DNA of 29,073 bases from Microbotryomycetes sp. JL201. Its lineage: Eukaryota > Basidiomycota > Microbotryomycetes. Numbering within the stretch: position 1 is the stretch's first letter; the number at the start of each line of letters is the position of its first letter. The notes beneath the pieces were generated by a model that was given only the letters and a program-made list of their open reading frames with translations, searched no databases and was not told where the DNA came from. Below are positions 1 through 29,073 of the stretch, piece after piece. The translations under genes and the position numbers were made by a program. Where the stretch lies: the NCBI GenBank assembly GCA_033819885.1, contig JAQYUZ010000075.1, positions 1-29,073 on the forward strand, given 5' to 3'.

Positions 1-31
1 GAAAGAGATGACTGCTGACCGGGGATACTAG
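1..31 (+). CDS. C-terminal end of a gene entering from the left (partial)
   Basis: Only the last nine sense codons and the stop lie in the window: KEMTADRGY, then TAG at 29-31. The other two frames hit stops within a few codons. The same nine codons, base for base, close the gene entering from the opposite end at 29043-29073, where the stop is TAA. Identity ends exactly at the third base of the stop, as expected for conserved coding DNA. The gene converges on the small membrane-protein gene that ends at 140. I do not recognise the protein from this tail. Confidence 0.6.
   Translation, partial: KEMTADRGY
2..30. repeat. Left arm of a perfect 29-bp inverted repeat at the window ends
   Basis: Bases 2-30 equal the reverse complement of 29044-29072 without a mismatch. 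The bases just outside (1 and 29073) do not pair, and beyond the stop codon similarity falls to scattered matches. The arm lies within the coding end of the flanking gene, so a duplicated gene explains it better than a transposon terminal repeat. Confidence 0.85.
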
Positions 32-52
32 ACACGCGCTGTAGATTTTTAA

Positions 53-88
53 ACAATTGGTTAGGTAACAACAATTGGCTAGGTAACG
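53..88. repeat. Two-copy 18-bp tandem repeat
   Basis: Two adjacent 18-bp units, 53-70 and 71-88, both begin ACAATTGG and differ at two positions. They sit in the roughly 108-bp gap between two converging genes, so probably in overlapping 3' untranslated regions. No function is visible. Confidence 0.7.
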
Positions 89-139
89 AAGACTGCTTTC
101 GTTTCATCATATGCTATGCATGCAAGTTAATTGAAAAGA

Positions 140-716
140 TTACTCGTCGGACGGTTTGCGAGCCTTGAAGTCCCCACCTGGGTTCGGTGGACGTTGCAAA
201 GGTTCGTGATCCAAGCCTGCCGCTTTTTTACCCATCTCTGTTTTCGGGTGAGTTGCTTCTGTCATGCCTTTGACAGCTGGAGTTGCAGCCGGCGGAGACT
301 GATGAATTAAATGGGTCAACACCAAAAAGAAGACGAGAGCTTTTCCAAGTATCACACGTCGGATGACTTACGGTGATGACTGTGCGGTAGCCCGCGTACA
401 AAGTTGCGAGGGCGAGAACAATATACAAAGGCGTGCGAGAATGTCCACGTTGTATGTTGATCGGCTCTTGAGGAGGTGGAGTACTCGACTGCGCTGACGT
501 CGAGAGCGAGCAACGTGACTGTTTGAGCGCGAAACCGAACCGGAAACGGTGAATGGATGAAGAGGTGGTAATTGTTCAAAAGAGTTTGGATCAGTCGTCT
601 AGATGGCGGTGCGTCGAGCCGTTTAGTGCACAAATTGGTTCAATACTCACAGCAGCAGGCAATCGAGTGACGAGCGCGCGAGCAGCGAGCGGCTTGCAGA
701 TCGCAAAGCAGGACAT
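140..716 (-). CDS. Small single-pass membrane protein with mitochondrial-type presequence (copy A)
   Basis: Three exons on the minus strand (651-716, 372-518, 140-298) encode 123 residues; both introns are phase 0. The N-terminus starts MSCFAICKPLAARALVTRLP. It is basic, free of acidic residues and rich in Ala, Leu and Ser, so a mitochondrial presequence is likely. One hydrophobic segment covers about residues 53-66 (LYIVLALATLYAGY). A hydrophilic tail carries the block ATHPKT and then KAAG. The gene is a diverged paralogue of the gene at 28536-28967: both share RG-x-SRTP before the membrane segment, AGY at its end and ATHPKT after it, and both introns fall at matching places. The first intron, at 132 nt, is longer than most here. 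I do not recognise the family. Location in an inner mitochondrial membrane is an inference from the N-terminus. Confidence 0.8.
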
Positions 717-1037
717 TAGACGCTGTCAGCCATCAATAGCCACCCAAGGACAGTCTCTGTTCTGCTTGCTCACAGTGTAGACGGTTGTGCGGGCGAGCGA
801 TCGAGTCAGCATGGCGAATTATCTTGGGTGAAAGAGTGCTGGTGATCGCAAGATCGCTAATATCGTAGCGCTCAGGCCTCTAAATTCGAAATGGCGACGT
901 CATGCGCAGTCGCACCATTCATTGTTGCTATCGAAATTGACAAATACACAGAAGCGACTAATTTACATATAAGAAGGCAGTGCAATTTTATGATACACAA
1001 GGAAGCGGAACAGAGCGTCCGAGAGCACATCAGTGGT
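717..1037. other. Intergenic region between two minus-strand genes
   Basis: These 321 bases hold the upstream region of the small membrane-protein gene and the 3' end of the kinase gene. Short open frames here have no recognisable content. No RNA gene or repeat was seen. Confidence 0.5.
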
Positions 1038-4000
1038 TCAAGCAGCCGACGACTTTTCCTGGTTGCGATTGAACATGGATATAGACGTCAACATTTTGGC
1101 CAGCTTTGTCTTTTGAGGGCCAGAGGCTGCAACGGAAGCGGGGACGCCGGTGGAGCTGGTTTGAACATCTCGTGCGACCACGTCCGCGCTCGCGGCGCTG
1201 TCGGCAGACTTGATTGTCGACAGGGGTTTGGAAGAAGCTCGAACGACAGGCGGGGCAGGCGCCAGAGTCGCGATTGACGATGAAGGAGAGTTGGGCGCGG
1301 TCAAGTCGGCCGTGTCGACAGAGACATCGACGAGCTTGGGCTTGCCACTGTTGGGGCGACTGATTGGTCCTTTCGCCATGAGGGATTCACTAGTTGCTTG
1401 CCTCGAACGGGAACCTGGTCGTTGCGGACTATCAGACCTGCGCCAGTCCCTCGAGCTGCTGGCCGTTCCAGACGCAACCTCGCTCGAGTTGACGCTCGAA
1501 AAGCTCGTCAATGGCGTCGGACCCCTTGACTCTGTCGAGACTGTGCCATTTCGCGTCGAACTCGTCGGCGAAAAATCAGATTCAACGCGTCTACGCTGCT
1601 TGTCGAGCCGTTCGCGTCGGTTAGATGTTGATGACCAATGCTTCGGTGACATTTCTCCAGGTTGTACACGACCCCGCGAACTTTCGTCACCTGCCTCGTA
1701 AGACCAGTTGGATCCCCATGAGCTCGCTCCGAATGATCCTCGGCTGGACAAAGGCGTCTCAACCCTTTTGCGACCTTCAATCTTTGCTGGAGCACTGGCA
1801 GCACCAATTGAAGCGTTGCGCTCAGCGGCACGTTGCTTGAACGCTTCAAGGTCAGGATTGCCCTCGGTCACCAGCGATTTAAAACGACCAAACACGCCAC
1901 CACCAGCCTGCTTTGTCGCAGCAGAGGACTTGCGGTCATGGTTGTCGTCGCGGGTGCGCAAGGCCGACGTAGAGTGCGAGCCCAAAGACAGCGGCGGACG
2001 GGATCCCGAGGACCCTCGATGCGAGCGTGGTGGAGCTTTGCTTAGTTCACGAGCCAAGTTTTGGGATGCCGACGCAAGATCTTCGAGCAATTGATCTTTT
2101 GAGAAACCTTCTTCGACCGTTGACAAGCCAGAAGGCGAGCCAAGTGAGATGGGTGAGGTCGAACGTTCGACCGAATGGTGAGGCCTCGAAGACTTGCCCT
2201 TGCGCGCTCCTCGCTTGCGCCGCTTTGACTTTTGACTGTGCTGATCGCCGTCATCGCCTTCTTTCTCATCGACTTTGTCGCTCGTAGGATGAGCATCGTT
2301 ACCGTTGTCGTTGTCGGTCTGGCTCACGTCTTCCTTGGCGGAGTCGTCATTCACTGCGACCGCTGAGATTGGTTCTGCTGGAGAAGCAGGAGCGTCTTCG
2401 GACAGGGGCGCCGACAGCAAAATCGGTGAGGGCGTCGCTGCTTCTGCTGCTGCTGCCGGTGTTGCACTTGACGGCAACGACTGATCGCTGGGATCAGGGT
2501 CGGACGTGTTCCAAGGGAGCATCGGAGGAGGTTTCATTACGTCATGCTTCTTTTCGCCTGGCCCCGTCAATGGAGCATGCTTGACGGGCGAAACTCGAGG
2601 CGAGAAGGTTGGAGACGGCAAACTTTCATCGTCGGAGAATGCGAACGGTGCGTTTGACGAGGCTACGAATGTTCGCTCGTCTTGTTCGTCGATAGCGCTT
2701 GGAACACGAGGAATGTCACCAAGCATGGTCGGAGACCACGGCTTGGTATAGGCCGCCGAAGTGGTCCCGGTCGAAGCTGCGAATTGCTGAGACAGCAAGC
2801 TGGAGCCGAGCGGACCGCCGCCATTTGCACGTGGAGTCGCAGAGAGCAATTCAAATGGACCACTGATAGGCTTCTCCGCACGAATTTGGCGTTGGCGCTG
2901 TAGGACGTCGTCCGACATCATCAAGTGAAGCCTGCTTGCCCATTTGCCAAACTCGCCCGCGGACACGCGTCTTTTTGGCACACCGTCGACTGTCTCGAGC
3001 ACGTCACAAAAGACATTTTCTGACAAGTACGCGGCGACATCGTCAGGCATGCCATCGAACCTGTCTTGAAGGAACCCGCGTTGGTCTCTGACATAAGCTG
3101 AAAAGTCCGGGTCCTCGAGAGACGGGTCCGCCCACGGGTTGCGATGATAAAGCAAGTTGAGCAGGACAAGGCCGAGTGACCAGACGTCTGCCTGTCTCGG
3201 ATCGTACGAAGGCGCGAGGTTGTTGCGACATTCCTAGCGAGTTTCACGCGAGTCAGCTCGGGTGCCTGGTACATGGGAGACACAGGATCGTAAGGAGCTT
3301 ACATAACTCATATAAGGCTTGGAGCCGCAATCAAAATCTTCGCAACGGTCTTCGTTCGTGCCGAGACCCCAATCCGTAATCTTGACGGTTATACGGCCCG
3401 ATCCACCTTCGCTGTCGTTTTGCTTGTTTTCGACGACGATAAAATTCTCAGGCTTAATGTCCCTGTGCGAAATGCCGACGTCGTGACAGGCTTGAACGGC
3501 CTGACACATTTGACCAAACATTCTCGAAATTAGTCGTAGACGTTTACGCGACAAGAGTGACGTGTTGGCAGAGGCGAGCAACGAAGGTGAGGGAGGCGTT
3601 TCGTCGCCGAGCATCTCAATCGCAGGATTGCTGGCAGTGATCGTTCGAGAGAGCTGCGCTTCCTCGTCGCTCGACAAGCCCGATAATGGGCGCGTCCGAC
3701 TGGCAGGCGAGTTGGCTTGCGAGTCGAAAGCTTCGCTCGATCCTTGCCTGCTTTCAAGCAGCCAGTAGAACAGATCACGACCCGGGCAGTACTCAAGGAC
3801 GAGGAATAACCAATCGTCTGTCTCGTATGCCTGTAGGATCATCCTGTCAAAAGATAGACACAGACAAGGACTACCTTCGCAATGCTTACACCGTATAATT
3901 GGACAATGTATTGATGTTCTGGCAGCGATCGATGGAGTACTGCCTCGCCACGTTGAACCTCGATAAGCTCTGGCGTGAGGTCCTTTTTGCACAAGCATTT

Positions 4001-5514
4001 GAGTGCGAAATGTCGACCATAGGTTGTAGGATGAAAGGTGAATGGATCCGAGCCCCAGCTGTGCATTCGCGGGCGGTGACCGAGACTAGACGGCGAGTCG
4101 AATTGAAAGGCTGTAGCGGCATCGATCGGAGATAGCATGTCTTCAGCTGCAAAGTCTGCATCGTACAGCACTTCTCGCACGAGGTAGACACTACAAAGTC
4201 GGATCAGCTGGACGTCATCGAATATATGTGGTTGCCGGCTTACATAGCGTACGTCCCCTCGCCAAGTCGTCGCTCGACCTCCAGTTCTCTTGGCCCTCCA
4301 ATACCATTTCCAGGTCCGTTGCCTTCCTTCGCGTCTGCAAAACAATCTCGCACCCAGCCGCCGCGCCCCTCTAGCCAGACATCGACGCCTATTCTTTCGC
4401 CTTCGGAAAAGATTTCGACCGTATCAACCCCGCCAAAGCCACCTTCGACGATATTCGAGTCTATCGTTCGCGTTCGACGAGGAACGGGTGATTGAGGGGC
4501 ACTGTCAAGGAATGGCTCTTCGCCAGACTTGTCGAGCGTTGACAATCGAGGCGAGACGAAACTGCGCCACGCAGCCGTCCAAGCGTTGGGTCCGCCGTGA
4601 CCGGATTCGATCTTGCCCTCTGCCCCAGTGTGCGGCAACAAGGCTTCGTCGACTTCGTCCATAAACTCCCAGGCTCCTTCACGTCCGCCAGTCGTATTTT
4701 CACGCACAAGCTCATGCAAGACCGGATGTGGACTGCCGTCGCCCGCGTTGCTGACGCTGACCGAACTTCTCCTGCTCCTTGCTATGCTCGAGCTAGCACG
4801 TGACGCCGTTCGCGAGCCCGAACCAGAACCTCTTTCAGATTCTGAATCGTCATCTGTTTCTCCTTCGCTCGCGTACGCTCCAACGGGACGTCTACGGCCT
4901 TCTCCAGCACGACTGTGACTGCGAGATGCGCTGCGACTGACACCTCGACCGCCGCTCGGGCCTGGATGCCGTACTCGCGCGTGATGTTCGATGCCGTTCA
5001 GAAAGCTTGCCAAGTGACTGAGCGAAGACCGTCGAGACGGATCGCGAGATGCCGCCCGCGTCGAAGAGGCTTGCAATGACAAAGCGGCGATCGACGCATT
5101 CGAAGATACTGGAGAAGTATTGCCGACAGACGAGCGTCGCGAGTGAGTTGATAGCGCGGATGGCGACGTGGAACGTGGCGATACTGAGCGTGGAGGCGAG
5201 CCGAGACCAGATGTATGAGACGTGCTGGGCGAGTTGGATCCTCGGCTCGAGCTTGGTGCGGCGTTCAAGGCATTCATAGGTGCAAAAGACACTCCCAGTC
5301 CGAGCGAGACTGCCGACCGTCTGCTCTGTACGCTACCCGACGCCCGTCTGGTCTGTCCTGCACCTAACCCGTTCGGCTCATGCTCGCGGCTGTGCCTGCG
5401 CGGAGATTTGGTTGGCGCTGGCGGCGATGCTGATGATCCAGACTGCGAGCTGCTGTTGGATCCGTTCGGGAACGAGCCCGGTAGTCGTGATGGCGAAGCT
5501 GTCATGGTGCGCAT
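1038..5514 (-). CDS. Ksp1-like serine/threonine protein kinase
   Basis: Four exons (4244-5514, 3890-4190, 3303-3830, 1038-3233) encode about 1431 residues. Introns are 53, 59 and 69 nt. A Ser-rich N-terminal third leads into a kinase domain from about residue 412: glycine loop LGEGTYAIVY (417-426), catalytic Lys in FALKC (K488), HRDIKPEN (646-653, Asp648), DWG instead of DFG (677-679), then CGSKPYMSYECRNNL where most kinases have APE, and DVWSLGLVLLN. This activation segment is the form I know from basidiomycete Ksp1-type kinases, related to yeast Ksp1, Vhs1, Sks1 and fission yeast Ran1, which act in nutrient and growth signalling. Two insertions stand out: about 55 residues between the glycine loop and Lys488, and a Ser-rich one of about 70 before HRD. 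The C-terminal 640 or so residues are low complexity and probably disordered. A second Met, three codons in, is an equally possible start. Confidence 0.9.
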
Positions 5515-6946
5515 TCTGAATACGAGTATTGTCGATCAGTGTCAGCATGCCGTCGCACTCTGGACATGGACAGCGCATATATTCAGGTGGCAGGGGGCTG
5601 TGTAAAAGAAGTGCACGGACTTACACACTCGCCGACTCGTTCGTGGTGATATCGCAGATGAATTTGTTTTATTTCGTTCAAGTGGCGAGGCCTCGGCCGA
5701 GAATCTCGAAGAACTCGACGTGGCCACGAGTGGTGGCCGAGATGAGATACGTCCAAAAGGCAGGGTCGAGGAATGTGCGAGAGATAGAAGCCAAAGGATA
5801 CCTGTGTGGTCTATTCCAGCGCGAGGCATTTCAATGTCAGCGAATCGCTGCCGAATCCTGAACGCGGTAAAGTGCCATCTTCAAAGGAAGCGGCACCGTA
5901 GGCTGGCTAGGCTGGGCAAGTGTACTCGAGCGGCTGAACCAGGCGAGTTAAGGCGAGCTTGCCGGCCATCCAGTACGTGGTCTCCGCCTCGGCCCCCGCG
6001 CTTCGTGCGACCGATGGCGCCAACACCATGCGTGGGTCCGTTTGCTCCACCCCTTGCCCGCCAAGCAAGGCGTGACTGGGGCCTTGAAGCCTGACAAGCG
6101 TCATCTGGGCACAATCGAGCATTGTGGCGACGCGAGGGCGCGCTATTGAGCCTTGTCGGGCGAGTCAACGGCGGCGCGCGCAGCAGCCAACGCACTGCAA
6201 CGCAACACGCCTGCACGCGCACACCCGAGCGCGCACTTGCTGTCCTTGAGGTGATGGCAAGAAGAACTCCGAGTGCACGCGCACGACTCACTCTGTATGG
6301 GGGCGACGGCGACGGGCAAATTAGCGTGCGTGAGCGCCGAGGCCGACGAAGCTGGTTCCGGCAAGCACTGCGTCAACGCGGCGAGTGCAGCTGTTCATGC
6401 CGCGATCGTTCAGTCCACTCCAAGTCGAAGGCGCCGGCTCGGTTCAGTGCAGCATGTTCGGCTCGGCCGGCCCGTGGAAGCTGGTCGAGCACGAGTTGGC
6501 GAGCGTCGGCGCAGACGGAACCGCGTGGTAAATTTTCACCGAAAAATCAGGGCAGGGATGCAGCCTTCAGTTCAAGACGGATTGATAGTCTTTCTTCGAG
6601 CCGACTCTGCTCTCCTGGTCTACAAAAAGGTCGCTTCGGGCCCCCCCCCCCCCCCACTCGGCAATGCGGCAGTGGCCGCGTACGCCGGCACGTGACTTTC
6701 TGCACTGTCAAAGACCGAAACACTTCAGGACGTCGAAAAGCATCTCGCTTCAAACGTAAAGGTGACAACGCTCGCGACAATCACGTCGCTAGCCTAGGCC
6801 GGGTCGCGCCAAAGTCGTCATCGCGTTGCCCTCGACCCCTTTCGACTGAAATAAATGCGTACACAATATGCTCAAGATTGTCTTTCAACAACGACAACAA
6901 CATTTATACGACGCGACAAGAATCCGGCTCTTGGCAGTCCCCTCTT
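5515..6946. other. 1.4-kb gene-poor interval
   Basis: This holds the upstream region of the kinase gene (reading left) and the 3' flank of the unrecognised gene that ends at 6947. Open frames of up to about 340 codons exist, but their translations are Arg- and Ser-rich without motifs, and the longest runs across the C-terminal exons of the neighbouring gene. Apart from a C homopolymer near 6641-6655 I see no repeat, RNA gene or recognisable exon. Untranslated leader exons could be here. Confidence 0.5.
6641..6655. repeat. Poly-C homopolymer, about 15 bases
   Basis: An uninterrupted run of about 15 C lies in the gene-poor interval. Such runs vary in length and are often miscalled in sequencing, so the exact count may be unreliable. 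Confidence 0.85.
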
Positions 6947-9006
6947 TCATGGAAATTCGCCCGTCTCTGGGTTGCGCGACGCCCAGCGCGTATCCGTCGA
7001 GTAATGCCAAAGCTCAGGACATGCCTGCTCGAGTCGTCGAGGTCTGTCAGTTTCGCCTGCGCCGTTGCCCAAACCTTGGCTGACTTACCTCCATGTCAAT
7101 ATACAAACTCGCCCGCAGCTTGGGTTGATCCTGCTTCGGCTCTGTGGTAGCCATGGCGCCACCATTGGCGGCGTACAGCGTAGTCCATTTCTTGTACAGC
7201 GCAGTGTACTCAGGTCCAAACAAGAAATCCCGGACGCCTGTTGATGTAGGGTATAACTGCTCCGCTGGCGTCCATCGTTCAAGTCGTTCTCTCACAACGT
7301 GCCACGAATCCGAATCCGGATTGTACTCTTCAGTCTTACGACGAAGATGCCCAAGAGAGATAGCCCACGCGACAAAGGCCAGTCCATGTTGCTTGATGCT
7401 CGATTCGACTTGTCGCGTCACAAATTCGACGTAGGCTTCCATAGCCGGATCCACATGGCGCCATCCGCGGCTCGAGTCTGGTCAATATGACACTTGTCAG
7501 CACGCAGGTCGACAGACTCTGCCGGAACTTACAGGCAACGGCCAGATGGAAATAAAACGGAAAGTTGAGCAAACCATCAGTGACGCTCGACTCGACACTC
7601 ATCCGCTCCATCGTTTCACCAATCACCTTTGAGCGAGCAACGAGGCATCAAATTCAGCGGTGATAGCAGTCAGAATAGATCGCGTGTACGCACCCGTGCC
7701 AGACCAAGCCCGGGGAACCGCTGACCGGGCAGTAGCGGTCGCGCATCTTTTGATCGTGGGTCATGGGACTGCGCCAGGATGGTCAGACCAAGCTTCTCAG
7801 CTCAGATACATACGCTTCTATTTTTCTCACCTGCATCCATACAATCTCTGTCACCTCCCATTTGCATGAACCACCTTTGGCCGATCTCGAATACTTTGCC
7901 ACGTTGAGTTCCAGAAACTGTGCCACTTCGGCCGCACCTTCCACTGGTATATAAGGAGCCCTCAATTCTCCTGTCATTTCTCTCAGGCCGTCCCAACCGC
8001 CCGCTTTTGTCAAGCGCTTCATAAGTTGGTAGGCGACCATGCTCTCTGCTGTCCAAGCAGACCTCCTCTTCATGTACAAGTCGACCAAAAAACGTTCAGT
8101 CGACCTCAGGTGACTCATCGTCGAGTCGAACAAAGAGCTGTCTACAAGTGACATACGATGTTGCAAGTCGTCCGATGTGTCGAATATTAGAGAGGGATTG
8201 GCGTAGCCGAGTCTGGCAAGCGCTGAAATGATGCCAGAGCGCGTGAGAATGTCAACCATGTCTTCGGACGAGTAATAGTCCAGGAACAACCTCGAACCCT
8301 TGTCGGTAGGCATTTGTGAAGCGTGATCAGTGTCGGTTGCGCCGGGGGTATGCGGAGCATATGATCCGAACGAGTCGTCAAGAACGCCACTGAGATCAAG
8401 GTCAAATTTCGACGTGTCTTCCTCAGTATGCGCGTCCCGGCTTGCTGACTCTGACGGGGACGATGACGATTTACGCCACCAATGGGGCGTGAGGCTCAGG
8501 AGTGCCCGCTCGACGTCGACGAGACTGAACGCGCCTAGACGATGACGGTTCCTCGGTGGCAGAGGCTTGTCCGAATCAGTTGAGGTGTTCTCGTTCTTTC
8601 TGTCGTCGGTAGTAGCGGCTGCTGAGGACGAGCTAAACGGTTGAGCGGCCATGTGCACCGGAGTTGGCGACGTCGATGTACCAGCAACATTTGTGAACGC
8701 TGTAATTGGTTCGACCGGCCGCCTTGTGCTCGAGTGAGACGACGAGGACGACAACAGCTTGCGCCTGGCATATCTGCGCAGGCGTGGCTCAAACTTGCTT
8801 GACCGAGCAACGAAATCGAGCAGCATGGACGGGGCATTCTCATCGTGAATTGCGGCATCAATACGTTCTTGATGTTGCTGGCTGTCGAGAGGGCTCGTCG
8901 GTGACGAAAGCGATGGTAGCTCGCTCGTCTTGGCCCTCGGTGACAAGGGAATGACAAGGCGCGACGGCGAATTTGTCAGCGCTGCGAGAGCCGGAGGTGC
9001 GTCCAT
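6947..9006 (-). CDS. Unrecognised protein, five exons
   Basis: The exons (7831-9006, 7694-7768, 7533-7626, 7089-7477, 6947-7024) encode about 603 residues. I do not recognise the protein. The first 200 or so residues are Ser/Pro-rich. The rest is folded-looking with many aromatic and charged blocks, such as ERFLVDLYMKRRSAWTAESM, GAAEVAQFLELNVAKYS and WAISLGHLRRKTEEY. There is no clear membrane segment or signal peptide. The short last exon (ending RNPETGEFP) joins in frame with good splice sites. The first intron is ambiguous: a 62-nt form (7769-7830) with a CTGAC branch-like motif is preferred over a 38-nt form with acceptor at 7793. The start at 9006 is chosen because the protein upstream of it, open to 9303, looks like translated leader. 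It lies head to head with the GH5 gene, 613 bases away. Conservation is my guess from the composition. Confidence 0.75.
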
Positions 9007-9619
9007 AGCTGTCCTGAACAGCGTTTGAGGGCGTCGCGTTTGTCTGGACGCACTTGCAGCGGCCGGGCGTGCAAGCAGCCGGCAAGTTCCTGCCAGTGTG
9101 TGAGGACACACGACACCAAAGGCTTGGCCTCGATATCTTCTCCTTTCTTCAGTGCGCTGGGCCGATCTACTTTCGCTGGGGGCGCGTGGTCGGTGAGCAG
9201 TGTTGGCTGCGAACCAGCACGCCGAGACACCGACATGCACGGACAAATGCCCCGTGGACTGTAATGAGCAATCATACCATTCATGACAACATCCTTTTAC
9301 CACTGATATCCGATATCACTGTTGCAGAGGAATCGGACGGCGCGTCGCGACGCGCCTGGCAAGCGATATGTCTAGCACATTATATGTTTGTTCCAAACTT
9401 TTCGCAGAGTCCACTTTTCTATGAGCAGATGGCTCATCTTGACACTAACTGACCGGCACGTGACCTGTGGCCAGGCCCTGTGGATTTTTCGTCCGGCCTG
9501 GGCGCTGACTTGTCCCGTGTCGTCTCGCCCGTCAATTCCCAACTTTTGTCGCTCGTTCAAGTGCTTTCGGAGCACCGAGGTGTGCAGCACGTGCTTCAAT
9601 CTCTACGTCGGGCCATCGA
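9007..9619. promoter_or_regulatory. Divergent intergenic region (shared promoter interval)
   Basis: These 613 bases separate the starts of the unrecognised gene (minus) and the GH5 gene (plus), so both promoters should lie here. The minus-strand frame stays open to 9303, but its translation looks non-coding. I could not pick a convincing TATA box or repeated operator. Confidence 0.45.
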
Positions 9620-12231: not shown

Positions 12232-12338
12232 ACCTGTTATTGTCATGATTATCACGTCCATCAGCCCGGTCTCGCGCCGCGACCTTGCGCGCGGGCACGA
12301 TCGTCTCTGGCGCTGCATCGCCCTGAACGACCTGTATC

Positions 12339-13866: not shown

Positions 13867-13913
13867 AAGTTTCCGTAAGATTAGACTAGCGCATTGTAGA
13901 TTGCATTCTCTTA
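13867..13913. other. 47-bp gap between converging genes
   Basis: Only 47 bases separate the stops of the two converging metallo-beta-lactamase paralogues, so their transcripts almost certainly overlap at the 3' ends. No separate terminator element can be told apart. Confidence 0.6.
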
Positions 13914-17507: not shown

Positions 17508-18622
17508 TCTGTCCTCTCGCAAAGACCGTCCCTGATTTCCAGCAACCCCTTCGCAAATACTGTTTGTAACCCTTATTCTTGCCGTTTATCGTTCTTTGCC
17601 CCTTGCGTTTTTCGTCCTTTTCGCTACGTGGCAAAGCCTCGTCGGGTAGCTTTTTGCCTCCGGTCGGGTCTTGGGCCACGTCCTTGCTCAAGCACGTTGA
17701 TCGTATTTCTTGTTTGCAATATTCTTTTCCCCCTTGATTGGACACATGTTGGCTCGGGAGACGTCGCCGCGCAAATTTACCCCAGACTGAGCAAGTGCAC
17801 TGCGGCAGCTGGATCGCGCCGAGCCGCCGGCAGCTTCGCACGCCAATTACTCGCAAATTCGCCGTCAACTGAATCGCGACAAGCCGTGCGAGCTTGATGA
17901 ACAAGACATGATTCGATGTTGGCAAATAGTACGTTTGCTGATCCCCGCGATCGGAGCGTTCTGGAGCGTCTCGCTTGATTGAGATGCGCCAAAAATACCG
18001 ACCACGCCACCCAAGTTTAGCGCTGCGAGGCGCAGAAGCGAGCAGCCATCGGAACTCGCGCGCAAATGTTCGGGAGAGGCAGGGGAACGAACTCAGCTCT
18101 AGTCAGCAGCGAGGGCACAAGGTGTAGTAGTTCTCCGCAAACAGTTCGGTCATGGGGAATGTGGAGTCTCCGTCGTTTCTTTCCTTCACCTTTGTCTCGT
18201 CACTTGGCACACATCTTTGCGTGAGTCGCTCAAGGCATTTGCAGACACGTCAGTATGTTGCACTACAGCGAAGAGTGCAAACTTTTCGCTTGCGTCATGG
18301 GGCGCACGCGCGCGCGCCTCGGCTGTTTAGCGCCTCGGTCGTCGACGTGAAGTTCACATATAATGTGCGCACAAATGCGAAAAGATCACTGCTCGGCTCC
18401 GAGGGTCGGAAATGAGCATAGCTCATCTCAATGTCGAGTGGGTCGGTCGTCATAGGGCGCCAGGAGTGGCGCCCCGAGGTGACGCAACCTCCTCACTTGG
18501 CTCTTTTTCCCAGAAAGCTCGACCCCAGACTCCGCTTTCTTGCTTTTCTGACACTGCGCATTTCCCGCTGTTTGTGTTTGCTCTTCTGCAGTTGATCAAC
18601 AGCAACACACGCCGACAGAAAA
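17508..18622. other. 1.1-kb intergenic region upstream of the transporter
   Basis: This holds the 3' flank of the secreted-protein gene and the upstream region of the transporter gene, both on the plus strand. Short open frames on both strands show no motif, and no exon could be linked to a neighbour. An AT-rich spot with ATATAATG lies near 18357. No repeat, RNA gene or mobile element was seen. Confidence 0.5.
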
Positions 18623-20215
18623 ATGACCTCGACCGCAAACGGATCGCTTCATACGACCGACGCCGAAAAAGGCCACATGAACGGCGGCGGCGCTCCCGGA
18701 CGCTTCTCGCACGAAGGTGGAGCGCCTTTCAATGCTCGTAAGTCTCTTCCTCCTCCCCTCGATGTCACATGTAGCCCACAAGCCTTTGCGTGCGTTTTCG
18801 CCGCTGGTTGCCTCGCGAATGCTCCGCCGCTGCGAAGGATCTCTCGCGTGCGACCGCCGCAAAACACCGACGCACTCGACGGGCTGCAAGGGCCTGCGAT
18901 GCACAAGCGCGCGAGACATGGCGCTGACCTATATGCTTGCATTCAACAGGCAACATTACTCCCGGTGGTGTGAGTCATTGACCTGTGTGACAGCTCGGCT
19001 ACGCACAGGCCGTAGAGGCTGACTTCATCGATCGCCGGCGGCTTGGTCCTGCCCGTTTAGCACCCTCTTGACCAAACTCAACCGGCCTTCCCGGTCTAGT
19101 AAGCTACATATCCGTAACAGGACATTGTACGGCTCATTGACTTGAGCGATTCGCGTACAGCCACCGCAGATTTGCCAACCCGGCGCCGCTCGGCTTGTGC
19201 GGTTTCGCCTTGACGACTTTCATGTTGTCGCTCATCAACAGTGAGTCGTCTATATTCCAGCGTCGCTGTACTCGATGTGCTCGAATCCTAAACCCGGCAA
19301 TTTCGAATTGTACTAAACATATCTCTTTTGATAGTGCAAACGCGCGGTGTTACCGTTCCGAACATCGTCGTTGGTCCCGCATTGTTCTACGGTGGTAAGT
19401 TTGAGGAACCATACACTGCGCTTCTCGGACACGTACAAGTTCTGACTTGGTCTTGCAGGTTTGGCCCAGTTGCTCGCCGGCATGTGGGAATTTGCATGCG
19501 GTAACACATTCGGTGCAACTGCATTCTCATCTTATGGTGCGCATTCTTCTGTATTCTGTATGAAACTTCGGCTGAAGGGCAACCCACATTTAGGAGCGTT
19601 CTGGCTCTCGTACGCTTTCATCGTCTCACCTTGGGCTCAGATCGAGTCTTCATACGAGGATGAGTCTATGTTGGCACACGGAGTCGGTTTCTTCTTGTTT
19701 GGGTGAGTGCGGAGCTCTGCCAGGACGAAGAGTCGAAGTTGACACGGCCGAGTCTTGATTAGCTGGTTCATTTTCACCTTTTTGAGTGAGAATCATCGTT
19801 CAATCCCCACTTGTTGGCGTTTCACTGACTGTACATGTCACGCGCACCAGTGTTTGTTGCGTCATTGCGCTCGTCGGTCGCCCTCGCGAGCGTCTTCTTC
19901 TTCTTGACGATCACATTCATGTTAGTCAGATGGCTGCTACGGCAGTACTCTCGACATGCTGACTCGGTGCTTTACGTAGGCTTCTTGGTATTGCCGAGTA
20001 CGTGACCGCGCACGCCACTGCTATCAAGACTGCAGGTGGAGCGTTCGGCATCATTACCGCGTTCAACGCGTGGTATGGTACGTGCATAGGCAGTCAACGA
20101 TCTCGCTCCGAGAAATTGACCTTTTCCTGCGCTCTCAGTCGCCTGGGCCGGTCTTTTGACCCCTGACACGTCCTTCTTTGTGCTCCCGACTGGCGATCTG
20201 TCCAAGAAGGACTGA
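18623..20215 (+). CDS. GPR1/FUN34/YaaH-family membrane transporter (acetate/ammonia type)
   Basis: Ten exons (18623-18737, 18950-18969, 19147-19240, 19335-19394, 19459-19536, 19594-19702, 19763-19785, 19851-19920, 19980-20077, 20139-20215) give about 247 residues. After a polar N-terminus with NITPGG comes the family signature FANPAPLGL (about 54-62), then six hydrophobic segments, among them LCGFALTTFMLSLIN, VGPALFYGGLAQLLAGMWEF, FGATAFSSYGAFWLSYAF, ASVFFFLTITFMLLGI and AFGIITAFNAWYVAWAGLL. The protein should sit in the plasma membrane; relatives (yeast Ady2/Ato, Aspergillus AcpA, bacterial SatP) move acetate or are linked to ammonia export. Nine introns in under 250 codons is very dense. 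The join between exons 2 and 3 is the weak point: the acceptor at 19146 keeps frame, but a hidden micro-exon in 18970-19146 is possible. Confidence 0.9.
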
Positions 20216-20495
20216 ACGCGCTCGAGTCCTATCGGTTTTATCGGGCTGTCTTTCTTTGTATGCGTCGCCTTACTTTCTAATTACCTTCGCACCTTGCATT
20301 CCTTTTTGTATTTCTGTTCTTGTCAACAGCCAAAGCAGTTTTGTCAAATTGAAATTTCAAAAGCAGTGCAATAAATTAGTCACGCTGGCGAATTACGAGA
20401 ACTTTAGCATCTCGACGCCTGATTCCGTCACGCCCTAGCAATCGGGCACGAAAGAGGTGTTCACAAGTCGAGCGCTCTGTCTGACGCGAAGGAGA

Positions 20496-21907
20496 ATGGC
20501 TGCGACCGGTGCAACTGTTAATGCGCCAGCGCCAGAGAATCCAGAGCTCGTGGTACGTCATCGGCCGCTTGCACCCGTTTTCATTGCGACGACGCAGGTG
20601 TTGTCCCCTGTCTGATTCAATATCCATGCGAGGCACTAGTGGCATGTCTCGGCTACGTTCGTGGCTCGTCCTATCGGATGCTGTGTTTACGCAATGCCCA
20701 GTCCATCGAAGCTCGAGCTGACATGTCACGCTCGACCTGAACCTCCTGCAGATCCGCAAGCTTAATGAGAGGACCACCATCTTTAGTGCACCTTTTGCCC
20801 GATTTGGCCTTATTCCCATCGGAGGTCGTTCCGTGAGTTGGCTCGCAGAATCTCCGGTTCTGCAAGCTCATCCTGCGTGCATGTCACATAGACTGCCATC
20901 AAACTTGAGGATGACTCGCTTTGGGTTGTGCCTTCGACAGCGTTGACACCTGCAACTTTGACGGCCTTGCAAGAACTGGCCGGTCAAGGTCCTGGTGTGC
21001 GCCACTTGGTCACGATTGACCGAGAGCACAACATATTTGTACCACAATACATCAAGGCTTTCCCTGAAGCCAAAGTGTATGTGCCAAGTGGAGTTAAGGA
21101 TAGTTGGACAAAGGACGCAAGCAAAAAAGATTTGGTCGACAAGATTACGTTCGTGTTTGGTCAGGGCAAGGGAGACCCTTTCGAGGCAGTGACGAACGGA
21201 GAGATCAAGACGGTCGATTTTGGCAAGAGCCATGGCAATGAGGTCAGTCCTATGCGCCGTCAAACCGATCCATTAATCAACTCGCCCTCTATCCAGGACG
21301 TCGCGTTTTTGCACACTCCCACAAAAACACTGATCCAAGCAGACTTGATGTTCAATCTGCCACCAACGGAGCAGGTGTGTGCCCGCATCGAGTCGAGAGT
21401 GGGCGTTCGGCATTGACCGGTATTTCCTGCAGTATTCGAAGAGTAGCAAGCGATCTTGGTTCCCAATCTTGTCTGGCCAATTCACAGCCGAGGGTTCGCC
21501 GGATCGGTATCGAGTCGGTCATTAACGAGAGCTGATGCGAGAAACTTGCAGGAGCCGGTCACAAGCGCCTTCTCAACATGATTGCCAAGGACAAAAGGTC
21601 AATCGGGATTGTAGAAGCGGAAAGTTTTAGTAGAAATTGACCTCCAGTTCCCTTTGCAGCGAGTACGCCAAGTGCGCGAAAGCAGTATCAGCTTGGGATT
21701 TCGACAAGATTATCCCATGTCACGGGCAAGTCAATCTCAAAAGATCACCAGAGAGACGCTATCTGATAATTTGCTTCCATGCAGAGACGTCATCGAGCAT
21801 GGAGGCAAAGGCAGTGAGTTACTTTTCGCGAGATGTGCTTTGATTTCACCGACCTTTTTTTTTCTGGCACAGTATGGAACAATTTGTATGCCAAGTTTTT
21901 GCAGTAG
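20496..21907 (+). CDS. DUF4336-like protein (metallo-hydrolase-related)
   Basis: Nine exons (20496-20552, 20752-20832, 20892-21242, 21297-21374, 21433-21493, 21552-21597, 21660-21725, 21785-21813, 21873-21907) encode about 267 residues. Motifs: FARFGLIPIGGRST near the start, SLWVVPSTALTP, then HLVTIDREHNIFVPQYIKAF (His84, Asp89, His92), VAFLHTPTKTLIQADLMFN, and WDFDKIIPCHGD near the end (His246). The layout is that of DUF4336 proteins, which look like metallo-beta-lactamase-fold relatives; no function is established to my knowledge. There is no signal peptide or membrane segment, so it is probably soluble. The seventh intron starts with GC. The first intron is 199 nt. The final exon is only 12 codons and ends WNNLYAKFLQ, fitting the family's end. 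Confidence 0.82.
21726..21784 (+). other. GC-AG intron, DUF4336-like gene
   Basis: This 59-nt intron has donor GCAAGT, a CTGAT branch-like motif and acceptor TGCAG, phase 2. It joins IIPCHG to DVIEHGGK. A nearby GT donor four bases on would be in the wrong phase. Confidence 0.75.
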
Positions 21908-22429
21908 ACAGTATTTAAGGAACGCTTGAAACATTGTTGTGTGCTCCCGAACGTCATGCTAGCCGTCTTCTCGAGGTTGGAGACTCGCCAGCCTCGCCAA
22001 CTGTACGTCAAGCGGTTGTCACAGACGAGAAGATGAATCTCGCTTGTATGTCTCAAATCGAGTGTTCAAGTCTCGTGAACCGTGCTCTGCTTGACGACCG
22101 AGTACAAGCTCGCTTGCCGCATTCGGAAGCCGCGACAGGCTCGCGATCCGGCCACAGGAAGCCAGCCACTCGACGTTTCTCTCCTCTACTACCTACCGTC
22201 ACATCACCTCAAAGCACAAGCAAAAAAAGAGTGCTGCCGCAGCCTCTCGCTACATCCCCGTCACTCGTTCGTGTAAGTTGCCGGAAGCGTTCGAGCGGTC
22301 GATCAGAAAGAGTGTCTCACCTCTCCTGGTTTCCGTCCGTGTCGTGCTGGACAGAAGACACTCGTTTCTCTGTTGCCTGGACAGTATCGTCTATCGCTGC
22401 TCGTCAACACCTAGCAATCAATTGTCGCC
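21908..22429. other. Intergenic region and probable leader of the Sur7-like gene
   Basis: These 522 bases lie between two plus-strand genes. An open frame of about 175 codons runs through into the first exon of the next gene out of frame; its translation is Ser/Arg-rich and motif-free. A GTAAGT at about 22272 could be the donor of a leader intron, but no acceptor can be assigned with confidence. Confidence 0.45.
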
Positions 22430-23695
22430 ATGGTCAACTTTTGCGCTGGATCAGGCATCTTGTTTAGCGTGGCGTAAGTCGAGACTCCTCGTCTAGCCGG
22501 TGTCCGTCCTACGACGCGTAATAGTCGGTCGCTGTACTGAACAAGGCAATCCATTTGCAGCGCTGTCGTACTCATCATCTTTGGCCAGGTCAGTGTGAAC
22601 ATCTGCCTCTGAGGCGGCTTCAGCGCGCCGACTGTGCCCAAAAGCTGCTTTACTTGCGTCAATGCTGACCCGGTTGTCCCTCTGATAGATTGGCCAACTG
22701 AGTACCTCGACGGTTACTCGGAACTTGCGCATTGTGTCGATAGACGTTTCTGGCTTGGGCGAGGCTATCGGCGAGGTGACCAACAATGGCGCAAACAACC
22801 TGACAGATCTGTACAATCAAAACACCCCTTACTACGTCAAAGACCCTGTTGGACCCGGCCGTCATGACGGGTTGCGCAAGGTGTACGAGTTTGGCCTGTG
22901 GAGTAAGTCTTTCATGGCACACCAGGCGCCGGGACTAAGACTTGACTGGGGTCGCTCTCAGACTACTGCTCAACGAACGGTGCTGTTGGCTCGTCGCCGA
23001 GGTCGTACTGCACACGTCGCGGTTTTGGCTCGACAATTCAGCCGGCTATCGTACTGCAGCAAGACATCCCGGAGCGCTTTGCGCCGGCGTTGACGCAAGT
23101 GCTGCCCGACAGCGTTTTCACCGCTGACGCGTATCTGGGCACGTACACCAAGGCTGCAGTATGTCTGGTGGAGGCGTCGAAAGAAGCTCTCGGCTGATCC
23201 GTTGCTTGGCGCAGACGTACCTCATTTTCGTTGGCTCGATCGCCGTGAGTTGCCAGCGCGAACGGATTGTTCTACTTCGACTGCTGACATGGTTTGCTCG
23301 CAGGCTGCACTTGTCATGCTCATCGGTCTCATCGCACAACGCTTTGCCTTTTTCCTGGGCAGTCTCTTGGCCCTTTTGTCCTTCCTTTCGCTCGCCGTCG
23401 GTCTCGTCATCTACACCGTCATCATCTCGCGAGTCATCTCAAGCATCGACTCGGCGACTGTCCAAGGTGTCGATTTGGGCGTAAGCGTCTCGTATGGCTA
23501 CTCGCTCTGGATTCTCTGGGCCGCCACGGGCGTCATGCTCCTGAGCATCTTGCCGTTTGCCATTGCTTGTGAGTTGGCACCGTCCTCTTGCAGGGCCGAA
23601 GGGATTTGCGCTGACGTTCGGTGCGCACGAAAACAGGCTGCACTGGTCGCCATGACAAGGGCAAAGAGGTGTACGTGCCTAAAGAGTCGTATTAA
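22430..23695 (+). CDS. Sur7/PalI-family four-span membrane protein
   Basis: Seven exons (22430-22473, 22561-22588, 22689-22902, 22962-23158, 23215-23244, 23304-23568, 23637-23695) encode about 278 residues. One hydrophobic segment at the N-terminus (about 10-24, within LFSVAAVVLIIFGQ) is followed by an outer loop of about 130 residues holding the family hallmark GLWNYC (Cys98) and a second Cys in SYCTRRGFG. Three more hydrophobic segments follow at about 162-182, 186-213 and 237-261. A short polar tail ends KGKEVYVPKESY. This order of spans and the GLWxxC loop match Sur7/PalI proteins, which mark eisosome domains of the plasma membrane or act in pH sensing. Which subgroup applies cannot be told. 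The start is fixed by a CCATGG-type context and the immediate hydrophobic segment. Confidence 0.88.
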
Positions 23696-23780
23696 CCCGC
23701 CATGCTAGCCTGCTTGCACTGGGCGCGCGTGCAATCATTTTCCCGGAAATCACCATTCGTGTTTTGTATTTGCCTTCTCT

Positions 23781-23795
23781 CATTCATTCATTCAT
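23781..23795. repeat. Short (CATT)n microsatellite
   Basis: Nearly four CATT units lie in the 277-base gap between the Sur7-like and CM1 genes. No function is apparent. Confidence 0.7.
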
Positions 23796-23972
23796 ATGTC
23801 GCATCTATTTCTGTCATGTAGCCAGGAGTCTTTATTACTGTGGGACATAGCCGAGCGATCGAGCGCGGCGCGTCGCGCGCGGTTTGCACGTGACTGCATC
23901 TGAGCCCTCGGCAACAGGAACCAGCGTCAAACACGCAAAGAGTAAGAGCGTAAAGCTTGTGTGTGCCTCTCG

Positions 23973-26900
23973 ATGGCATCGAGTGCGGCTCTGCTGCAGG
24001 GCTTGTCATTCAACACTGGCCACCACGGCGACCGCACTACGTTCGACGACAGTGACGCCGGTCACGGCCGCCCTCGCACGTACAACAAAGACGACGATCG
24101 ACGTGCGCATGACGGTCAAGGGACCGGGGGCGTGGGCATGACAACAGTTGGAGGCATCACGCTCGGCAGCATCGCAACAAGCTTTGACGCAGACGACGAG
24201 GACGAGCGTCGGCTGTATGATGAACAATTGCATCAGGTGCAATCCTCCAAGCCGGCTCCGATGGCGTGGTACAAGCCGGCGGCCGGTCACCCGAGACTAG
24301 GCGCCCTTGACGACGACAGCAGTTTGCTGGACGAGCAACACGAAGCTCTGGCGGGCGATCAAGAATCTGTCGTGCACGCCATGCCCTCGGCACGGACGGC
24401 AGAAGGCGCTCGGTACCGTCAGGTGTCTTCACGCACGGGCTCGAGGTCTGCCACAGGTTCGTCCCGGCTCGCCTCTGCATCGACCGCTCCGACAACAGAG
24501 TACGACGACGCCGACGTTGTAGGTTACGGAGAGGCTAGACGCGCCGGTCGCGACGGCCTCGCCAAGCGCGACGTTGCCGCCACAGGACGGTCATCTCCGC
24601 GAGGCAAGAAAGTAATGCCGTCGGGGTTGCAACAAGACTGGTCGCAGCGCAAGGACGATTCTACAGACACGGGATTGCAAGACGACAGTCGTGTGCTGCG
24701 CGACTTGAACGTTGACGACAGCCGAGACTCTGCGCGCTATGACGGTCGACAGTACGGAACGAAAGCGCTGAAAAAATCACCTGGCGGCGTTGGACAGAAT
24801 ATGACATTGAGAGAACAGGAAAAAGTACGCAGCTCAGCGGCCTGGTTTCTTCAGAAAGCTGACGCCTGCTCAAATTTCTAGGTCATCGATGAGGTCAAGA
24901 AGGAAAACTTTGACCTGAAGCTTAAGATTCATTTCTACGAGCAGCGACTTGAGCGGCTCGCTCCAGAGCAGATTGATCAAGCATTAAGAGAAAACATTCA
25001 GCTCAAAGTCGAGTTTCAGACATTGCGGACAGAGCTCAAGCGGTATAAGAAGCTGTTGCTCGAGGGCAACAGAGCCATCGAGCAATTGTCGAGCGAACGT
25101 GATCAGGCTTTGCGCGGCCGAGGAAGCGGAGGAGGAAAGCGAGAACGAGAGGTCGAGAAAGAGCTGGAGAGGGAGAGGGAAGACAAAGAAGCGCTAGAAG
25201 CACGGTTGCGAGAGCAGGCGCTCGAGCTGCGCGAACTGAGGGAGAGCAGGCGACGAGGATTTGGCAGCCACCCAGACGAGGAAGCAGAGGTGAGGACTGT
25301 ATCCGCCCAAAAAGATACTTGCTCATTCTCGGCTGTACAGGATGAGTTTGAGCGCCTGCAAGCCGAGCTTGATGCTATTCGAGACGCGCACGATGAAGCT
25401 CTCGGCGACCAAGATGATCTGCGCCATCAGCTGCGAGACACCCAGGACGCACTTGAAGAAGCCCGCGACGAAATTGCTCGTCTGAGCGAAGAGCGGGCAG
25501 AAAATCAAAGCAGCGTGGTCGGACGAGAAGAAACGAGCGTCAGCGGAACGATCGCAAGTCGAAGGGAGCACGAACGGCTTCAGGCCCGTCTGGACGAGCT
25601 TGAGCGGGTACGGACGTTTTGATTCCTCAGTGTAGCTCTTGCTGATGCGCTATGATGGGCTCGTAGGAGAATGATGCCTTGCGTGAAGATCTGGCGAGAG
25701 CGGACAGCGAGCTGGATCACAGAGACCGCGCAAGAGGCGGGCGAGAATCAAGTGACGCCAGCCAGACAAAGACCCGAGAGCAGCTCGAAGACGTGAGCTG
25801 CTTCTGCACGTTTTCGAGTATCTGCTGACGCCATGCACGGCAGGAAAACGACGAATTCCGTGATCGTGCGAGCGCTCACGCACTGCAAGTCGAGCGCCTC
25901 GAAAACGAACTCGCAGACAAAGAGCGCGAGATTGAAGAACTTTTGGGAGAGCTTGATCGGAAAGATGCGGACCACGTCATTGCGCTGCGGCAGCTTGAAG
26001 ACGAAATCAAGGGCGAAATGGAGGACGCCCGTACTAGAGAAGCTGATGCACGAGATGTGAGCAGAAAGTGTGTGTTGGAGCCGAGCGCACAAGCTGAGAG
26101 CTCCCTGTCAGCTTCTGGACGAGAAGGAATTGGATATCGAGGGTCTTGCCGCAAAGGTCGAGACACTGGTTGTCGAGCTTGGCGACAAAGACCAAGAAAT
26201 GGCTGGCGACAAAGAAGAAATCGAGGCCCTCACGCATGATTTGCAAAAAGTCAGTCGACCTTGCGGGGGCTTGGTAACATTGGACTCACGTTTTCTTGCC
26301 TAGCTCGGTGCGCAGATCTTTGCTTTGGAAGAGGAAGCCGATGAAAAAGATAATCGAATCCAGCAACTAACGTCAGACCTCGAGGCGGCCGACCGCGAAC
26401 TTGAAGTCAAACTGCAGGCGCATGATCGGAACACGGCGTCGGTCCGTGACCAGCTCGCAAAGGCGCGAGCAGCGTTGGACGAGTACGCGATGCGGACGGC
26501 CGACCTCGAAGAAAAATCGAGGGCCGACACGGACACAAAGCAGAAGCTCGAACAGGAGGCTGTCGACATTATGAAAGCGTTAAAGAAAGAAGAAGAGGAG
26601 CACGAGCGGCATCGACGCGAATCGAGTCAACGGCGAAGCGAAGACGAGGCCCGGTGGCGCAAGCTTCTCGAAGAACGAACGAGAGACCTTGAACGGGCAC
26701 AAAGCGATATTGAGCGGTTCAAGGATCTCGTTGGCATCCGTGAGAAAGACGTGCAAGGCTTGCAGCAAGCACTCAATGGGCTCGAGAAGTCGGCTCGTCA
26801 CGACGGCGAGACGCACAGCAACAACCGTTTGGCACTCGAGATAGAGCTCGACAGGCTTAAACGCGACCTGGCGCGCTGCGAAAATGACCTCGAGCGCGCT

Positions 26901-28292
26901 GAAGCCTCTTTGCAAGAGTCCACCGAGGCTCTGCGCGAGCGTGACCTCACAGTTGCAACCTTGGTGAGGATCCGGGCTGTCCTTGTTTCTGCTTCCGGGA
27001 CAACTTACACGAAGGCTTGCAGCAATCTGAAAACAAGGAGCTGTCCGGACAACTGGCTGCTCAGACTCAGACTCGGTTGGCGCTGACCGACAAGTATGAC
27101 GAAGCTGTCAAGGTACGCGAGATGCCAGCGTCATCAGAAACGTACTGATCGAATATGGGGTGCAGAACTTGCGGGCAGCCCAAGAAGACCTTGCAACGAC
27201 GCGCGAGCGGCTACGGAATGCCGAGTCCAAGCTTTCGACCGACCAGCGCACGTCTGGACGAAGCGAGCATCAATTCCGGGACCAGCTAACAGAACGCAAC
27301 TCGCTGCTTCAAAATGTGCACCAGCAGCTTGAGCGCATGTCTCTCTCCCAGGTATGTGAGGATGTCGGTCTTGCCAGGCGTACAGCTAAAACAAAAAGAA
27401 AACTGGAGCAGCGACGGCCCGGACAGGCAGAGCCGTTACCTCACAACAACTTTGGCGCATTCCAAGATAGCCTCTTGTCACGCGTCAAGAGTGTGACACA
27501 GCTACAGGCAGACTTTGAGCAACGTACACGCGACGTCGAGTCGAAATTGGCCAGTGACTACAAGTGAGTTTGATGCGGTCGTTGGACTTTTATGCGAGCT
27601 GATTCCGCGGCTCGCGGCGGGCAGCACCATCAAGCGGCAGCACGAAGCAAAGGTCAAACAGCTCGACAAGCTCGAATCAACGATCAAGAGCGCAAACGAA
27701 TCGCAAAAGCAATGGCGCGAACGCGTGCGCACGAAGCAGGTCGAGGTGGACTCGGGCAAAGTAAGTCGGGGCTGACCGTGTGCACAGTCGAGTGCTGACG
27801 TTCATACTCAATCCTTTCAGTCTGTTATTGCCGATCTTCAGCGACAGATTGCGGCGCTACGCAGTTCGCCAAACGACGACGCGGCCGTTTCGTCACGAAT
27901 TGCTGCGCTGTCGTCTCGTGCATCGAACGCTGAGCGTAAACTGCATCTGACGCAAGCGCAGCTGAGCGACGCCGAAGCCAAGCTTGCCGAGGCCCGGGAC
28001 AAGGTGGGCGTCGCAGAGGGCAAGTGGGAGGCTAGGTTGCAAGAGTTGCAATCGCGTTTGCGAGCAGCAGAAGAAAAGCTCAAGCGCGAGAGACAAGGTG
28101 CCAAAGAGCGCGTACACGAGCTCATCGAGCAAAACACGCAAGTCGTGACCGAGAGACTCGACTCGGAACGCGGACTAACGCTTTTCATCTGCCAGTCTGC
28201 TCAAAGACCAAATCGTCGACTCTCGGAGACGCGGAGACCAGCTCGACGACGTGCTCACCGGCGCCCACGATGGTGTTGGACTTGCCCAGTAG
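23973..28292 (+). CDS. CM1-domain coiled-coil protein of the spindle pole / microtubule-organising centre
   Basis: Thirteen exons (23973-24824, 24882-25289, 25341-25607, 25667-25792, 25844-26056, 26112-26249, 26304-26963, 27023-27112, 27166-27351, 27412-27563, 27625-27760, 27821-28137, 28196-28292) encode about 1213 residues. A disordered, Asp/Ser-rich N-terminal part of about 275 residues leads to a CM1 motif (Centrosomin N-terminal motif 1) at about 277-340, with MTLREQEKVIDEVKKENFDL followed by KLKIHFYEQRL. In Cnn, Mto1, Spc110 and Pcp1 this motif binds and activates the gamma-tubulin complex. The rest is almost continuous coiled coil. The C-terminus (ending GAHDGVGLAQ) shows no PACT or calmodulin-binding block that I can see, so an Mto1/ApsB-type protein fits better than Pcp1/Spc110. 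The last intron has a GC donor. Introns at 25290-25340 and 27352-27411 are in frame without stops, so their splicing is less certain. Confidence 0.88.
28138..28195 (+). other. GC-AG intron, CM1 gene
   Basis: This 58-nt intron has donor GCAAGT, a CTAAC branch motif and acceptor GCCAG, phase 2. It joins HELIEQNT to LLKDQIVDSRRRGDQLDD, keeping heptad-like coiled coil to the stop. Reading on instead gives a Cys/Trp-rich tail unlike anything upstream. Confidence 0.8.
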
Positions 28293-28535
28293 TAATTATG
28301 TGTATCTCCAGTTTCAGGGAATCGCTGTCTTGTTGTCGCTGTTGGTGTATTTTCTTGATTTTAATGCGCTCCTCTGGATGCTAAACTCTCGTGTATCATT
28401 CCTTTAACACTCTCAGAAAGTCATCGTTTCCCCGTTTTTGCTAAGAGTACGAACATTCACAATTTGAGGCGATGACGTCGGCGCGCGACAGAGCGTCTCC
28501 ACCGGGAGCCGGGGTTCTGCTTTCGCAATACCATC

Positions 28536-28967
28536 ATGCAATCACTCTTGACACGAGCTAGACAGCCGGTACGCCAAAGCATGTTGTATCCGACTGTATG
28601 GGTACTGACATGCAAGGTCTTGGCATCGCAGCTGAAGCGCTCCTTCGCAGCTCAACGACGGCTGTACGCGAGCGAACCCGTCAACGCCGAGCGTGGCAGC
28701 TCGCGCACTCCTTTCTACATGATCGCTGCCGGCGTCGTCTTGTTTGCCGGCTACAAGCTCGGCACTCAGGTTCGTCTCTGGACAAAGCTTGGGTCTTGGA
28801 GCATTGCTCAATTATATGGTCTTGACGCACAGGGTACTCCAAACACGCCCGGAGTCGAGGGCATCGTCCAAGCTACTCATCCAAAGACTCCAGACGCAAA
28901 AGCGGCTGCCGGCTTTCCCGACAAGCCTCAAGAGCGATCCTCTCAAGCTGGCGAGCAAAAAAATTAA
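28536..28967 (+). CDS. Small single-pass membrane protein with mitochondrial-type presequence (copy B)
   Basis: Three exons (28536-28568, 28632-28769, 28833-28967) encode about 101 residues; both introns are phase 0. The N-terminus (MQSLLTRARQPLKRSFAAQR) is basic, free of acidic residues and amphipathic, typical of mitochondrial import signals. One hydrophobic segment spans about 39-55 (FYMIAAGVVLFAGYKLG). The tail carries VEGIVQATHPKT and KAAAGF. It is the paralogue of the gene at 140-716 in mirror orientation, with matching intron places: the first near the end of the presequence, the second just after the membrane segment. The tail of copy A has additional residues (NPGGDFKARKPSDE). The second donor is a less usual GTTCGT. 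Family not recognised; a role in an organelle membrane is only inferred. Confidence 0.82.
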   Translation: MQSLLTRARQPVRQSMLYPTVWVLTCKVLASQLKRSFAAQRRLYASEPVNAERGSSRTPFYMIAAGVVLFAGYKLGTQVRLWTKLGSWSIAQLYGLDAQGTPNTPGVEGIVQATHPKTPDAKAAAGFPDKPQERSSQAGEQKN

Positions 28968-28997
28968 TCACACATAGTTGACAAGTGTATTGTAATG

Positions 28998-29037
28998 CAA
29001 GGACGAGATGTCTTGAAAATCTTCAATCAAGGACGAG
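28998..29037. repeat. Short direct repeat, two 10-bp copies
   Basis: CAAGGACGAG occurs at 28998-29007 and 29028-29037 in the gap between two converging genes. It may be chance. Confidence 0.5.
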
Positions 29038-29042
29038 CGCGC

Positions 29043-29073
29043 TTAGTATCCCCGGTCAGCAGTCATCTCTTTG
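29043..29073 (-). CDS. C-terminal end of a gene entering from the right (partial)
   Basis: On the minus strand nine codons, KEMTADRGY, run into TAA at 29043-29045. They are identical at base level to the codons at 2-28. The gene converges on the small membrane-protein gene that ends at 28967, mirroring the left edge. The protein is not recognised. Confidence 0.6.
   Translation of the reverse strand, partial: KEMTADRGY
29044..29072. repeat. Right arm of the 29-bp inverted repeat
   Basis: This is the perfect inverted copy of bases 2-30. It coincides with coding DNA of the right flanking gene, up to the second base of its stop codon. Confidence 0.85.

Follow-up and report, generated by a model that had tools for sequence, protein, structure and literature searches.

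The closest known system to the locus described here is the flip/flop region on chromosome XIV of Saccharomyces, in which, as described in PMC9731477, 24 kb lie between almost identical 4.2-kb inverted repeats that each carry two protein-coding genes. The repeat genes are given as the pairs YNL018C/YNL034W and YNL019C/YNL033W, and the gene pairs of S288C are reported to be 97.9% and 99.9% identical in DNA (PMC9731477). The interval is described as occurring in both orientations, and the same source notes a tendency of short-read assemblies to end at the junctions of these inverted repeats, which are then usually fused in a single contig with twice the coverage (PMC9731477). An interval of 19 kb between inverted repeats is also described for the mating-type flip/flop of Ogataea polymorpha (PMC5720833, PMC5701183, PMC4238957), and interlocus gene conversion is reported for the duplicated histone genes of yeast (PMC4700949).

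The window analysed here, a stretch of 29,073 bases, is the entire contig C73 (1-29073) of a genome of 17,152,241 bases in 92 contigs. As read from its sequence, two inverted copies of a convergent two-gene unit enclose about 29 kb. The outer gene of the unit is seen at both tips through its last nine codons only (KEMTADRGY), and the inner gene is a small gene of about 100 codons; the unit is a two-gene inverted duplication because this adjoining small gene is duplicated too. The locus resembles the Saccharomyces region in the size of the interval, in the inverted two-gene unit, in its apparently homogenised sequence and in the break of a short-read assembly at the junctions. Unlike that region as it is described (PMC9731477), identity here is confined to the visible end of the outer gene, with 29 nt of identical border DNA seen and at least 77 bp more inferred, whereas the inner gene has diverged; the arrangement is also known from one assembly. 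The mating-type region described for O. polymorpha likewise has an interval between inverted repeats, but no MAT gene was found by Pfam in the 20 ORF pieces scanned from the window, and there is no sign of regulated inversion. The likeness to the yeast histone genes, as they are reported, lies in duplicates apparently kept alike by interlocus conversion, although here just nine codons of the gene are visible.

Positions 2-30 (+) and 29044-29072 (-) form an exact inverted repeat of 29 nt, identical throughout and bounded by a mismatch on both its inner and outer side. At the outer limit, a G at base 1 stands against a C, the complement of base 29073; at the inner limit the third base of the stop codon differs, being TAG (29-31) on the left and TAA (29045-29043) on the right. 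The 3' ends of the flanking genes, KEMTADRGY plus stop, therefore occupy 2..31 (+) and 29043..29072 (-), with nine codons visible per copy. The frame was inferred from the mirrored layout and from the bounding mismatches, both of which fall at third codon positions: the outer difference is in the codon preceding KEMTADRGY, and the inner change still gives a stop. The DNA outside the window would then be the remainder of this gene.

The repeat was absent from 100 dinucleotide shuffles of the window, which holds no second exact inverted repeat of 29 nt, and a pattern search of the genome with 0 or up to 3 mismatches found two copies of the arm only. A shorter pattern also matched the genome at the two window tips only. 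The original prediction had reported this perfect repeat and the KEMTADRGY ends with their TAG and TAA stops, and had inferred one gene flanking the interval in opposite orientations; rereading of the sequence gave the same arms and the same nine-codon coding end on both sides, and the case that it had left conditional, that the window is a whole contig, is the actual one. It had overlooked the adjoining small gene, so that its single mirrored flanking gene was correct for the KEMTADRGY end and incomplete for the locus. The KEMTADRGY peptide, padded with X, had 0 matches among solved structures, and a literature search for EMTADRGY found no paper. Degenerate DNA patterns for the peptide found 0 stretches in prokaryotic and viral contig collections, which is weak evidence for a fungal gene. 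The first 400 and last 400 bases of the window had no match in other contigs, in a search blind to matches as short as 29 nt (the other arm was itself unlisted).

Comparison of the window with itself by tblastx paired the tips and, in mirror orientation, 176-467 (-) with 28674-28952 (+). Apart from the tip, small-gene and central pairs, the remaining rows were scattered, scored low (up to about 33 bits) and were taken as noise. The second of these pairs corresponds to the small genes, whose exon borders were drawn by eye. On the left, the last exon (140..298, -) ends in KARKPSDE and a stop, and is separated by an intron (299-371) from an earlier exon (372..530, -) that contains QRGHSRTPLYIVLALATLYAGYRTVIT. 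The right paralog (28536..28967, +) consists of exons 28536-28568, 28632-28769 and 28833-28967. Their local alignment reached a score of 164, where none of 500 shuffles exceeded 56, and each protein matched just itself and the other copy at E<0.01 in a search of its own genome. A possible third copy on contig C9 appeared at E 0.013 with the right protein only; it was not recovered with the left protein and was rejected. Neither protein had a Pfam match at E<=1, the right protein had no match among solved structures at E<=10, and the small gene carries a stretch resembling a membrane segment. At both borders it lies tail to tail with the KEMTADRGY end, with 108 bp between the two genes at the left border and 75 bp at the right one.

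The two genes of the unit differ in how far their copies have diverged. Of 64 compared residues the small genes have 32 in common, and at 14 of 32 degenerate positions they use the same codon, while the visible KEMTADRGY copies agree in 9/9 residues and 8/8 degenerate codons. Synonymous agreement in the outer gene is thus far above that of its neighbour, in a small sample. Some of the shared codons are not the commonest in the window (ACT 0.15, CGG 0.15, GCT 0.20, GGA 0.21), and the chance that all nine agree is 3.2e-4 under window codon usage, which was taken from 3,594 codons of 11 mechanically called ORFs, some possibly non-coding. Purifying selection by itself, acting on a highly conserved and codon-biased gene that stays identical without exchange, would account for the nine identical residues. 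It is nevertheless a rather improbable explanation given that several of the shared codons are unusual and given the low probability of their agreement, a figure that reflects window usage and not that of highly expressed genes.

The outer gene alone looks homogenised, and on these codon counts gene conversion is most likely the cause. The original prediction had left open a strongly conserved or a recently converted gene, and had proposed a synonymous comparison of the flanking genes; made on the visible KEMTADRGY codons, that comparison favours conversion over plain conservation, because all the degenerate codons agree, some of them uncommon, against fewer than half in the adjoining paralogs. 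The argument for conversion would be weakened if the gene is highly expressed and strongly biased in its codons, or if the outer gene was duplicated later than the small one; both are possible. The second of these would have the outer gene duplicated recently and separately, beside an older duplication of the small gene, with conversion unnecessary. Such a history fits the end of identity at the stop codon and the 3' spacers, which have no DNA similarity to each other, but it requires two events to place the same genes tail to tail, and mirrored, at both sites. It is less simple than one duplication with homogenisation and appears unlikely. Conversion of the outer gene, with a tract that would end at the stop codon, is the simplest reading of the border sequences.

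To place the ends of the window among those of the assembly, 145 of 184 contig tips were read, and 124 were usable after exclusion of 21 telomere-like, few-letter or N tips. Where different contigs had a common start of at least 15 bases, exactly 77 bases were shared, in 11 of 11 pairs; this prefix count leaves out tip pairs that overlap at an offset. Such a fixed length of 77 bases resembles the word size of a k-mer assembler, and would fit SPAdes. Mirrored tips were present in four of the 53 contigs for which both tips were read (C21, C73, C84 and C92; two of the 53 have an N tip). The tips of C73, C84 and C92 begin with a mismatch that gives way to identity, which in C84 is offset by one base. 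The tips of C84 and C92 are mirrored and slightly diverged, as those of the window are, and the first-base rule rests on these two contigs besides the window. C21 breaks the rule, as its inverted tips match without a difference throughout the 240 bases read. Both tips of such a contig likely leave one 77-base node that has been trimmed, so that the sequence starts at the first distinguishing base. From this rule at the other contigs, identity of the copies probably extends over 77 bp or more beyond each end of the window. That assembly stopped where the copies become indistinguishable, as had been proposed, is hence supported by inference from other contig tips. The collapsed short contig may be absent from the contig set, since none of the 92 contigs is shorter than 10,602 bases.

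These tips also bear on two other explanations of the arms. Short inverted repeats at both tips could be the terminal repeats of a mobile element spanning the contig. However, the 20 ORF pieces searched with Pfam (E<=0.01; partial coverage of the window) yielded no match to a transposase, integrase or reverse transcriptase, paralogous genes lie directly inside the arms, and three other contigs also have mirrored tips, which therefore mark assembly breaks; an element of this kind is extremely unlikely. One arm could instead be an artefact, the contig being chimeric or folded back on itself. The tips do lie at assembly breaks, and tips elsewhere made of single-base runs or low-complexity sequence suggest that artefacts exist, but beyond the 29 nt the 900-base tips have no significant DNA match to each other, and a copied end would not give small genes that agree in just half of their residues. 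We regard an artefact as very unlikely. Among the other contig tips were telomere-like CCCTAA arrays, runs of C or G and low-complexity strings, of which the runs and low-complexity strings are probably artefacts. C21, a contig of 218,852 bases, has identical inverted tips over its first and last 240 bases.

Continuations of the outer gene were sought at the tips that had been read, including the window's two, by listing open frames in the right phase and ranking the candidates by codon usage; eight were chosen for a Pfam scan, and part of the others were assessed by eye. No credible continuation emerged from the eight. Five had no match, one matched VIT1 inside the domain (E 0.3), one matched a Tudor model (E 0.028) and one matched a gag protein (E 0.00018) and MiAMP1 (E 0.13).

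Our preferred reading, to which we assign a probability of roughly 60%, is an inverted duplication of a gene pair in which one gene has been homogenised by conversion and the copies have been collapsed by the assembler. A convergent pair, the KEMTADRGY gene facing the small gene, would have been duplicated in inverted orientation, with about 29 kb between the copies, and the small genes would since have drifted apart until about half of their residues matched. Interlocus gene conversion from one inverted copy to the other would keep the end of the outer gene's coding sequence identical, synonymous sites included, with the conversion tract ending at the stop codon. If identity outside the window spans at least one 77-base assembly word, the assembler would collapse the copies and produce a contig of 29,073 bases that emerges from one graph node at either end and opens, at each side, with the first base by which the copies differ. 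Short-read contig tips can in this way expose homogenised inverted paralogs that are hidden by assembly.

A crossover during such an exchange would invert the interval. That the locus is a flip/flop region which inverts recurrently through its homogenised border gene, with conversion confined to that gene and its partner free to diverge, is a doubtful extension of the border sequences. If the preferred reading is correct, one gene alone of an inverted pair is kept alike, and the boundary of homogenised against diverged sequence could reveal the target of selection.

The interval between the mirrored gene pairs (531..28535) contains a second mirrored pair near the centre of the window. Its left member (12339..13866, +; span of ORF pieces) is metallo-beta-lactamase-fold-like, with a PF12706 score of 24.9 bits that is below the cut-off of 27, and its right member (13914..15423, -; span of ORF pieces) is a metallo-beta-lactamase-fold gene with 48.6 bits against the same cut-off. 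The two lie tail to tail. They are identical in 81 of 177 compared residues and agree in 27 of 80 degenerate codons, which is similar to the small genes, and searches of the genome with pieces 13150-13866 and 14609-15148 returned just these two genes at E<=1.

One old palindromic duplication could lie behind both pairs, the whole contig then being the relic of an ancient palindrome in which the tip and central pairs are the surviving mirrored genes. Both pairs are mirrored and similarly diverged, a third copy was found for neither at E<0.01, and their centres are close, at about 14.5 and 13.9 kb. Against this, no other gene was convincingly mirrored in the tblastx of the window on itself, synonymous divergence looks saturated, and a local inverted tandem duplication, tail to tail, explains the central pair as well. 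A palindromic origin of the whole contig is accordingly given a small chance, and the preferred reading, an inverted duplication of the border gene pair with conversion of its outer gene, is kept for the tips.

Scans of the window with Rfam (gathering threshold) and for tRNA were empty. Its genes are dense, with short introns, and the gene structure looks fungal. The interval also holds a protein kinase piece (PF00069; 3234-3998, -), a piece with a weak, below-cut-off match to GH5 (10888-11244, +) and an ORF piece for which the genome gave no match besides itself at E<=0.001 (4240-5514, -). Two domains of the DUF class scored above their Pfam cut-offs, DUF7729 at 16542-17507 (+; 37.6 bits) and DUF4336 at 20928-21416 (+; 30.1 bits).
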